DNA of 64,000 nucleotides from Thermosynechococcus sp. (GTDB taxonomy: Bacteria > Cyanobacteriota > Cyanobacteriia > Thermosynechococcales > Thermosynechococcaceae). Position numbers and translations under genes: made by a program. Location: contig NZ_AP024678.1 of assembly GCF_025999095.1 (NCBI RefSeq), positions 2,015,527 to 2,079,526 on the forward strand. The letters run 5' to 3'. The notes beneath the pieces were generated by a model. It did not search any database. It was not told where the DNA came from and worked only from the letters and a program-made list of their open reading frames with translations. Below, in pieces: positions 48,748 to 51,533 of this stretch; the stretch's first letter is position 1; each line of letters opens with the position of its first letter.

Positions 48748-49842
48748 CTATTGTGATGAGCAGTTATTCAAATAATAGGCAACGGCGGTGGCGATCGTAG
48801 AATTCCCGTTGAGATCCAAGGGCGTGGGGTCTTGGGGCGGCTGCGGTTCTATTCGCAAAAAATCCCAATGACCACTCAAAAACTCTTCATGGCTGAGGAT
48901 TTGATGGTAGTGGTGTGCCTGTAATCCCGCTACCAAAAGGGGGCCTTCAGCAAAATCATCACGCCGAATCGTTGCCACCGGTACCCCCAAGCGACAGGCC
49001 TCCGCGTAGGTGCCATAGCCGGGCTTGGACACAACTCGACCACAGAGGGGCATCACATCCACCGGCCGCAGTTGACGACCACAGAGCCTCAGTAAGTTTG
49101 GCATATTCTCGGGTGCAGCTCCATCAAAAGTGAGAAACTGCCAATCGGGAAACTCCTTGAGGGCTTCGTAGGGAATGGCTTGCAGGCTCAAACCACCAAA
49201 GGTCAATAGAGCCGTGCGCTCGCGGGGGGTAGCAAGGCCAAGGCGCTGCCGCAACTCCTCTGGTTGAAAACGCGGTTCGGCTCCCGTTAGGCCCACCGGT
49301 TCCTTGCGAGGAAACGCGTTGAGGGGTTCAGCAAAGGGCAGTTGAAACAGGCGATCGCACCCGCTATAAAGATCACTCACCCAATCCGCAATCTCAATAA
49401 AATCATCCCCAAAGGAGCGATAGATAAAATCCCAGCCAAAGTTACTGGCCATCCAACAGGGCACCCCGGCCGCGTGGGCGATCGCCACCGCCAACGGCGG
49501 AACATCCGCCAGCACCAACTGCGCCCGATTCTGTTGAATAAAGGCCACCTCGGCGCGGATTAACTCAGGGGCTGCCGCCTGCAGGGCTAAGAGCTTGGCA
49601 TGGGTTGCGGTCAAATCCATCTGCAGACTATCTGCCTGGACCACGCCGCAGTCAAGGGCACGGGGACGGTGAATAAACTCGCCTTCCAGGTTCGTCTGCA
49701 ACAGCCAATAGGGGGCAGCCGTCACTATGAGCGGCAAAAGATCCGGCACTTGGCGGCGGATCGCATTCACCAGCGCCGTTGTCCGCACTACATGACCAAA
49801 GCCATGATTTGTGATTGCCACGTAGAGAGTCGGTCGAGCCAC
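48748..49842 (-). CDS. Glycosyltransferase-like (GT-B fold) protein
   Basis: 364-residue protein with a GT-B-like two-domain fold. N-terminus LYVAITNHGFGHVVRTTALVNAI has the GxGH motif of GT28/arabinokinase-type N-domains. The C-domain contains LLTFGGLSLQAIPYEAL, VDVMPLCGRVVSKPGYGTYAEACRLGVPVATI, similar to the nucleotide-sugar site of MurG-type enzymes, and an ending HHYHQILSHEEFLSG. The donor and acceptor are unknown. It is the promoter-proximal member of a minus-strand group with the TPR glycosyltransferase (gap 2 bases) and the 5'-nucleotidase. Confidence 0.82.
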   Translation of the reverse strand: MARPTLYVAITNHGFGHVVRTTALVNAIRRQVPDLLPLIVTAAPYWLLQTNLEGEFIHRPRALDCGVVQADSLQMDLTATHAKLLALQAAAPELIRAEVAFIQQNRAQLVLADVPPLAVAIAHAAGVPCWMASNFGWDFIYRSFGDDFIEIADWVSDLYSGCDRLFQLPFAEPLNAFPRKEPVGLTGAEPRFQPEELRQRLGLATPRERTALLTFGGLSLQAIPYEALKEFPDWQFLTFDGAAPENMPNLLRLCGRQLRPVDVMPLCGRVVSKPGYGTYAEACRLGVPVATIRRDDFAEGPLLVAGLQAHHYHQILSHEEFLSGHWDFLRIEPQPPQDPTPLDLNGNSTIATAVAYYLNNCSSQ

Positions 49843-50107
49843 CGGGGTGTTTTTACCAAAACCGATGCAATTTTAACATTTGTAACAACTCGCCAGTAGT
49901 ATTCCCAGCGTCTTTTTCTGAATCACCCGTCTGCCTCTGGGGACCTAGAATGGATTTAACTCAATCTATTCAAATAAAACATAAGATAGATTTATTGGCG
50001 GTATTTATGAATTTATGTTGCTTTCTATAAAGATATGTAACATACTATTGACTAGGAGGCAGAGATAACTTTAGCAACCCGCTAGATATTTAACATCTCT
50101 GAAGCAT

Positions 50108-50605
50108 ATGACCTACACCACCGATACTCGTTTCACTCCCTCAACACTAGCCACAGCCGTTCAAGAGGTCACCACGCTTTTCAACTGCCTGAGCGTGGAT
50201 GACAAATTGGGACTGCTGTGGTTCCTCTACACTGAAACGGGTCGTTCAATTACAGCCGCCGCCCCCGGTACGGCTCGCCTACAACTGGCGGAAGGGCTGC
50301 TCAATCAGGTCAAAGCCCTCAGTTTTGATGAGCAACTGCAATTCATGCGTGACTTGGTGGCCAATGTGGATACCCCTCTCACCCGTGCCTACGGCGTCTT
50401 TAGCCCCAACACCAAGCTCGCCTTCTGGTACCAACTGGCAGAACTGATGAAACAGGGGTTTGTGGTGCCTGTGCCCCCCGGTTATACCCTGAGCCGCGAT
50501 GCTGATCGCGTCTTTGCAGCCATCAAAGCCCTTGACTTTGGTCAACAGATTACCGTCCTGCGGAATGCGGTGGTTGCCATGGGTGTGGATCCCCTTGCCA
50601 TCTAA
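50108..50605 (+). CDS. Helical carotenoid protein (OCP N-terminal-domain homologue)
   Basis: 165-residue protein matching the N-terminal, all-helical carotenoid-binding domain of the orange carotenoid protein without its C-terminal sensor. Residues that hold the pigment in OCP are kept: W38 and Y41 (LLWFLYTETG; OCP W41, Y44) and W107 (LAFWYQL; OCP W110), and R152 in QQITVLRNAVVAMG corresponds to the OCP salt-bridge arginine. HCPs quench phycobilisomes or singlet oxygen depending on subtype. The partner CTDH gene starts 78 bases downstream; a strong terminator lies between them. The upstream 265 bases are AT-rich. Start ATG 50108 lacks a close Shine-Dalgarno. Confidence 0.95.
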   Translation: MTYTTDTRFTPSTLATAVQEVTTLFNCLSVDDKLGLLWFLYTETGRSITAAAPGTARLQLAEGLLNQVKALSFDEQLQFMRDLVANVDTPLTRAYGVFSPNTKLAFWYQLAELMKQGFVVPVPPGYTLSRDADRVFAAIKALDFGQQITVLRNAVVAMGVDPLAI

Positions 50606-50626
50606 TTGAGATGCCATGGGTTACGC

Positions 50627-50653
50627 AAGGGGGCAACTTGCTCCCTTTTTTTT
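50627..50653 (+). terminator. Intrinsic terminator between the HCP and CTDH genes
   Basis: AAGGGGG pairs with CTCCCTT (50627-50633 and 50641-50647, one G-T pair) around the loop CAACTTG, followed by a run of eight T overlapping the 3' arm. It begins 21 bases after the HCP stop and ends about 30 bases before the CTDH start, so read-through would be reduced. Confidence 0.8.
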
Positions 50654-50683
50654 CTTGATTCAAACCCCTGAGGACCTGAAAAT

Positions 50684-51100
50684 ATGACCCATCTTGTTCA
50701 AGGGAGCCCCATTCTCACCATTGACGAACCGACCCTGATCGCCTACTTTGCTGCCCTCAATGACGAACGCTACGAGGATGTGGCTAGCCTGTTTGCTGAG
50801 GAGGGAGTGCTCTATCCACCCTTTGAGGATCCCGTCATTGGCCGGGGGGCGATCGCCCATTATCTCCACCTGGAAGCCGTGGGTATGCGAGCAGAACCCC
50901 GCACAGGAGAACTCCTGAGCACAGAGGGCACAGAACGTCGCTACCGCCTCATCGGTAAAGCGAAACTCCCCCTGTTTAGCGTCAATGTCGCTTGGCAATT
51001 TGGCCTCAACCCTGAGAATCAAATCACGTTTGTGAAAGTGGATTTGCTAGCAACCTTGGCGGAACTCCTCAACTATCAGCCTCTGCGTCAGCAGCGCTAG
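50684..51100 (+). CDS. OCP C-terminal-domain homologue (CTDH), NTF2-like
   Basis: 138-residue NTF2-fold protein equal to the OCP C-terminal domain. In OCP this domain hydrogen-bonds the carotenoid keto group with a Tyr and a Trp; the likely equivalents are Y21 (LIAYFAALN) and W104 (NVAWQFGLNPENQ). FVKVDLLATLAELLNY matches the OCP end. CTDHs carry or deliver carotenoid to HCP. The protein contains no cysteine, so the disulfide-dimer described for some CTDHs is not possible here. It follows the HCP gene and its last 32 bases overlap the convergent coiled-coil gene. Confidence 0.94.
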   Translation: MTHLVQGSPILTIDEPTLIAYFAALNDERYEDVASLFAEEGVLYPPFEDPVIGRGAIAHYLHLEAVGMRAEPRTGELLSTEGTERRYRLIGKAKLPLFSVNVAWQFGLNPENQITFVKVDLLATLAELLNYQPLRQQR

Positions 51101-51443
51101 GGTGACCGGAAAACACCTCGGACTCTAAGGCCTCTACGCGATCGCGCAAATTGTGGAGAATGCCAGAATGACTCAGGCGTACCGCTGCTAACTGTTCCCG
51201 CAGACGATCGTAGTTCTCGGACAGTTGTTGGCGCAGATAAATCACTTCACGGCTGAGGGCATGGACCCGTCGCTCTAGATTCGCCACCTGTTCAGACAAA
51301 TGATTTGCTTGGGTATAAAATTTGCAAACAATGTCAACAATTGCCGCTTCAAGGCTAGCCAATTGATGCTCCCGCTGATAGGCATACAGCCAACTAAGAA
51401 CTTCTGGCGGTAAATGTTCCGTAATTGGCGACTGAGGATTCAC
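51069..51443 (-). CDS. Small coiled-coil protein, unknown
   Basis: 124 residues from GTG 51443 (MNPQSPITEHLPPEVLSWLYAYQREHQLASLEAAIVDIVCKFY), in which the first 45 residues have helical character similar to a short DNA-binding or dimerisation module of cyanobacterial proteins. Residues about 47-108 are a coiled coil (NHLSEQVANLERRVHALSREVIYLRQQL and continuing). No family name known to me. The 3' end overlaps the convergent CTDH gene by 32 bases. It is transcribed away from sixA, with a 90-base gap. Confidence 0.7.
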   Translation of the reverse strand: MNPQSPITEHLPPEVLSWLYAYQREHQLASLEAAIVDIVCKFYTQANHLSEQVANLERRVHALSREVIYLRQQLSENYDRLREQLAAVRLSHSGILHNLRDRVEALESEVFSGHPSAADAEADS

Positions 51444-51533
51444 GATTCCATCCTTTGGCAGGCTGTATTTCTATTCTGTCGCTTTAGGGAAAGTCGTGGG
51501 AGAGGGTCGAAGTATGGGAACAGACGCTTGTAG

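Follow-up and report, generated by a model that had tools for sequence, protein, structure and literature searches.

A helical carotenoid protein (HCP) together with a C-terminal-domain homologue (CTDH), the stand-alone counterparts of the two domains of the orange carotenoid protein (OCP), is the proposed progenitor of OCP. The closest described systems come from Thermosynechococcus itself: T. elongatus BP-1 is without OCP, encodes an HCP nearest to HCP5 and shows no NPQ under blue light (PMC12059629), and a T. vulcanus strain from which both the HCP and the CTDH gene had been deleted, made for work on phototaxis, retained positive phototaxis (PMC9090330). Biochemically, CTDH is required for the loading of HCP (PMC10147662), and HCP5 quenches phycobilisomes in vitro (PMC12059629). 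In one report (PMC6123778), the T. elongatus CTDH, a clade 1 protein in which Cys103 is absent, binds carotenoid and forms dimers in the loaded state only; a carotenoid-bridged dimer and transfer to apo-HCP are described there for both this protein (TeCTDH) and the Anabaena one (AnaCTDH), and the OCP C-terminal domain (CTD) as well as CTDHs of the Anabaena and T. elongatus types deliver carotenoid in vitro to apo-OCP, the N-terminal domain (NTD) or HCP. As for the pigment, CTDH has been described as fairly specific for ketocarotenoids (PMC10147662), a Euhalothece HCP held zeaxanthin and beta-carotene in E. coli, and trace echinenone was found in ketolase-free halophiles (PMC6971039). The core finding at the locus described here, an HCP and CTDH pair in Thermosynechococcus, is already known, since the pair has been published in this genus; what is new is a conserved terminator-like hairpin between the two genes, and the absence of a recognisable ketolase gene.

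The hcp-ctdh locus and its proteins

The window, a 64,000-nucleotide stretch of a Thermosynechococcus sp. genome, carries hcp (50108..50605, + strand) followed in tandem by ctdh (50684..51100, + strand), the two open reading frames (ORFs) lying 78 bases apart. This bears out the preliminary description, in which the two OCP domains were separate adjacent genes: the hcp stop codon (50603-50605) divides the ORFs, and there is no one-chain OCP with both domains and a linker. The genome is a single contig of 2,497,893 bases (99.99% complete) with one Carot_N locus (profile search) and one CTDH-like locus; the whole genome holds no second OCP N-domain gene beyond hcp and no match to the FRP model PF18032 even at E 10, so that the absence of full OCP and FRP first noted for the window extends to the complete genome. 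The closest named relatives are Thermosynechococcus (95-97% identical), and in 68 of the 80 nearest relatives among public genomes the CTDH gene lies 3' of the HCP gene on the same strand, which makes such adjacency ordinary for HCP4/5-type genes. A promoter scan of the upstream region expected to hold the hcp promoter (49843..50107, + strand) gave no more than chance, Rfam returned zero matches in 49800-51500, and NCBIfam has no model for either HCP or CTDH. On the opposite strand, a 124-aa ORF with no Pfam family (window 51069-51443, - strand) shares 32 bases with the 3' end of ctdh.

The hcp product, of 165 aa, is an HCP5-like helical carotenoid protein and a homologue of the OCP N-terminal domain, as judged from Pfam, PDB matches, its place in the tree and its residues. 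It matches Carot_N (PF09150) at 220 bits (cut-off 25), its best solved relatives in a PDB sequence search are 8qx5/9h41 and OCPs, and its length falls within the roughly 160-180 aa of stand-alone N-terminal domains of the HCP class. We aligned both proteins to a Synechocystis OCP sequence that we take to be the reference and whose numbering is self-consistent. In this alignment, W38, Y41, W107 and R152 of HCP correspond to W41, Y44, W110 and R155, and Y21 and W104 of CTDH to Y201 and W288, which agrees with the earlier reading that all six pigment-contact residues are retained. HCP further keeps D31, D74 and E75 (D34, D77 and E78 of OCP), with R130 at the D133 position, and the HCP4/5 marks R57 (R60) and F144 (F147). 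Both of these marks, R60 and F147, have been tied to phycobilisome binding and quenching (PMC12059629). Evolutionarily, HCP sits with HCP5-type proteins of Spirulina, Crocosphaera, Hydrococcus and Prochloraceae in the N-domain tree, grouping with the HCP of Spirulina subsalsa (a reference HCP5 species) and apart from HCP4 and OCP, with moderate support (91/74) for the wider HCP5-containing clade.

The ctdh gene has a Shine-Dalgarno-like GAGGA (50670..50674, + strand) 9 bases before its ATG, a putative ribosome-binding motif, and encodes a protein of 138 aa. A PDB sequence search matched this protein to the C-terminal half of OCP and to the Anabaena CTDH All4940; its predicted structure (mean pLDDT 86.6) has the NTF2-like fold of AnaCTDH 6s5l (TM-score 0.83 by query length, rmsd 1.4), and with its equivalents of Y201 and W288 it is a stand-alone OCP C-terminal domain. 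Phe instead of Cys at position 103/105 (Phe98 here), in a protein with zero Cys, places it in clade 1 (CCP1), and because there is no cysteine the disulfide switch is absent. As in other CTDHs, the loop that precedes W288 in OCP lacks four residues here. Leu97 replaces OCP W277 in CTDH of 12/12 genomes of the clade, and Leu at this position throughout Thermosynechococcus may mean an altered pigment pocket.

The hairpin between hcp and ctdh

Between the two genes, at 50627..50653 (+ strand), the terminator scan placed an intrinsic-terminator-like hairpin in the order AAGGGGGCA-ACT-TGCTCCCTT, the first and last parts forming the stem and a T-run following; this GC-rich stem-loop and T-run have the sequence of a predicted intrinsic terminator. 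The hairpin is present in all 12 pairs of the clade (11 Thermosynechococcus genomes and the related genome G018), with stem arms nearly invariant and the loop variable among the 11, and with the same type of structure built from different sequence in G018. Across cyanobacteria, a terminator-like site was found in 52 of 81 hcp-ctdh pairs against 2.7 expected from shuffles, a count that takes in 14 close Thermosynechococcus copies (some being the same gene from two collections) and whose significance is inexact, since the species are related. Scoring of the hairpin relied solely on consensus and shuffles. With Thermosynechococcus left out, 29 of 63 pairs had a site no more than 150 bases past the hcp stop. 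The same scan at the same loci flagged 7/105 other codirectional gaps and 17/146 convergent gaps, the low score of convergent gene pairs also marking a limit to its sensitivity. Such hairpins, unrelated in sequence, turn up in 17 of the 23 groupings by taxonomic family, and 29 of the 81 pairs are without one.

We discarded a dispersed repeat as an explanation, as the window has only one such site when up to 3 mismatches are allowed. We likewise set aside a promoter of its own for ctdh: the 30 bases from the T-run to the ctdh ATG leave little room for one, and the promoter scan showed none there. In clostridial ABC-importer operons, a hairpin between two genes makes the first product more abundant than the second (PMC9045158). 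By analogy, we infer that ctdh would be made by partial termination and read-through below hcp, with CTDH as a sub-stoichiometric loader. We found no report of an internal hcp-ctdh terminator in the open papers searched; the conserved hairpin suggests a simple rule, open to testing, for how much carrier is made relative to acceptor.

Pigment, function and origin of the pair

The preliminary description assumed a ketocarotenoid, an assumption that does not fit a genome with CrtR and with recognisable CrtW and CrtO absent. At family cut-off, the NCBIfam models for CrtO and CrtW find neither ketolase in the genome, the only cross-match to the CrtW model being CrtR at 31.5 bits. The genome has four FA_desaturase-family proteins, namely CrtR (512 bits, over its cut-off) and three that are fatty-acid-desaturase-like, with no CrtW among them; searches with PF01593 and crtI_fam did not show CrtO, and the amine-oxidase matches are explained by CrtP, CrtQ, CrtD and protoporphyrinogen oxidase. 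No CrtW or CrtO was found in any of the 12 HCP+CTDH-only genomes (11 Thermosynechococcus and G018), and a ketolase is present in 8/8 genomes of the family with full OCP. In three relatives with full OCP (L025, L027 and L032), crtW directly adjoins ocp on the same strand.

Class-wide, among 146 Cyanobacteriia genomes at least 95% complete, all ketolase-bearing genomes (91/91) also have Carot_N, an association that is strong and ignores relatedness, and a ketolase occurs in 0/33 genomes without Carot_N, apart from weak CrtO-like matches of about 355 bits in two of them (G032 and G055). There are also 22 Carot_N genomes without a recognised ketolase, 12 of them besides this clade. The idea that ketolase absence is special to HCP-only genomes fails at this scale, since 9 of those 12 have full OCP. 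Because the genome has no recognisable ketolase, the pair probably holds a carotenoid without keto groups as its native pigment (zeaxanthin, beta-carotene or a derivative) and not canthaxanthin or echinenone, a reading that a non-homologous ketolase would reverse. The precedent is Euhalothece, which likewise has HCP5 and CTDH1 but no ketolase and whose HCP took up zeaxanthin and beta-carotene in E. coli (PMC6971039); the trace echinenone of ketolase-free halophiles speaks against this reading. A ketolase-free Thermosynechococcus genome would sit badly, indeed conflict, with the idea that CTDH specifically carries ketocarotenoids.

Functionally, we think it probable that the locus is the known unfused two-protein OCP module of Thermosynechococcus, in which CTDH loads HCP and HCP quenches. 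CTDH, as a dimer bridged by carotenoid, would collect the pigment from the membrane and pass it to HCP, and the loaded, HCP5-type protein would be the end product, quenching phycobilisome excitation and/or singlet oxygen; hcp would be the main transcript and ctdh would be expressed to the extent that transcription continues beyond the hairpin, leaving the loader scarce and the acceptor abundant, and the pair would probably carry a non-keto carotenoid. Carotenoid binding, dimerisation on carotenoid and transfer are described in vitro for TeCTDH or close homologues (PMC6123778), in line with the carotenoid transfer through which photoprotection had initially been proposed to run; light-triggered quenching is not supported, T. 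elongatus being without NPQ under blue light (PMC12059629), which also weighs against an in vivo quenching role of HCP. Beyond this, we tentatively suggest that hcp-ctdh in cyanobacteria is not a plain operon, having a recurring internal terminator and CTDH as sub-stoichiometric loader, and that the Thermosynechococcus version works on a non-keto carotenoid as an OCP-free, ketolase-free photoprotective pair.

The missing NPQ of T. elongatus (PMC12059629) would also suit an antioxidant carotenoid store or carrier, a singlet-oxygen quencher without a direct phycobilisome quenching role, as would the ketolase-free genome and the antioxidant activity of zeaxanthin-loaded homologues in E. coli (PMC6971039), but we regard this as unlikely, as HCP retains the phycobilisome-contact marks R60, F147 and R155, whose retention would then lack an obvious explanation. 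We give still less credence to a dissociable OCP, in which HCP and CTDH would form a light-sensitive heterodimer around a single carotenoid, its separation in the light freeing HCP for phycobilisome quenching. Synthetic heterodimers of OCP domains are known (as cited in PMC12059629), both OCP salt-bridge residues are retained (R152 of HCP, equivalent to R155, and E64 of CTDH, equivalent to E244), and hcp and ctdh are adjacent in most relatives; however, blue-light NPQ is absent in T. elongatus (PMC12059629), Euhalothece HCP and CTDH with canthaxanthin, tested singly, were light-unresponsive (PMC6971039), the interdomain linker and FRP are absent, and the hairpin argues against equal production of the two proteins.

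Evolutionarily, full OCPs form one clade in both domain trees, with support of 100/99 (N domain) and 100/100 (C domain), and Thermosynechococcus lies outside it in both. That a full-length OCP underwent fission within the lineage of Thermosynechococcus, as the initial term "split OCP" implied, is very improbable given this exclusion and the grouping of HCP with HCP5-type genes that themselves mostly adjoin CTDH, even though other genera of the family have full OCP and forcing Thermosynechococcus and OCP together (at a cost of 12.3 and 16.3 log units) is left unrejected by the AU test (p 0.087 and 0.067). With neither domain placed inside the one OCP clade, the trees suggest that the pair is better read as an unfused OCP module, a split OCP being less likely. 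Elsewhere, Argonema antarcticum (L121 3929 and 5102) and an uncultured cyanobacterium (L143 3929 and 5152) carry a full-length OCP followed by CTDH on the same strand, the OCP occupying the place of HCP in the HCP-CTDH order of their relatives.

Comparison with known systems

Of most interest at this locus are the internal terminator-like hairpin and the pigment that the pair would natively carry where no ketolase is recognised; a genome with HCP and CTDH only, lacking OCP and FRP as well as any recognisable ketolase, allows a clean test of the pair's role and pigment. The internal terminators of clostridial ABC-importer operons resemble the present hairpin in lying between operon genes and setting a product ratio, but their genes are unrelated to hcp-ctdh, and the effect is experimental there and inferred here. 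Euhalothece likewise has an HCP (HCP5) gene beside a CTDH (CTDH1) gene in a genome without crtW or crtO, but, unlike the genome here, it also carries a full OCP1. Anabaena HCP4 (all4941) and CTDH (all4940) share the gene pairing, the fold and the transfer role, and the solved Anabaena CTDH structures are 43-45% identical to the CTDH described here; however, the Anabaena CTDH is a clade 2 protein with Cys103 and a disulfide-linked dimer, whereas the present one belongs to clade 1, and Anabaena also carries OCP1 and other HCPs. Closest of all are the HCP and clade 1 CTDH of T. elongatus and T. vulcanus (TeCTDH; NIES2134_112880 and 112890), for which the open papers searched make no mention of the intergenic hairpin or the missing ketolase; they come from the same genus, with both genes adjacent and OCP absent (PMC6123778; PMC9090330; PMC12059629), and the present pair differs from them at the strain or species level only.
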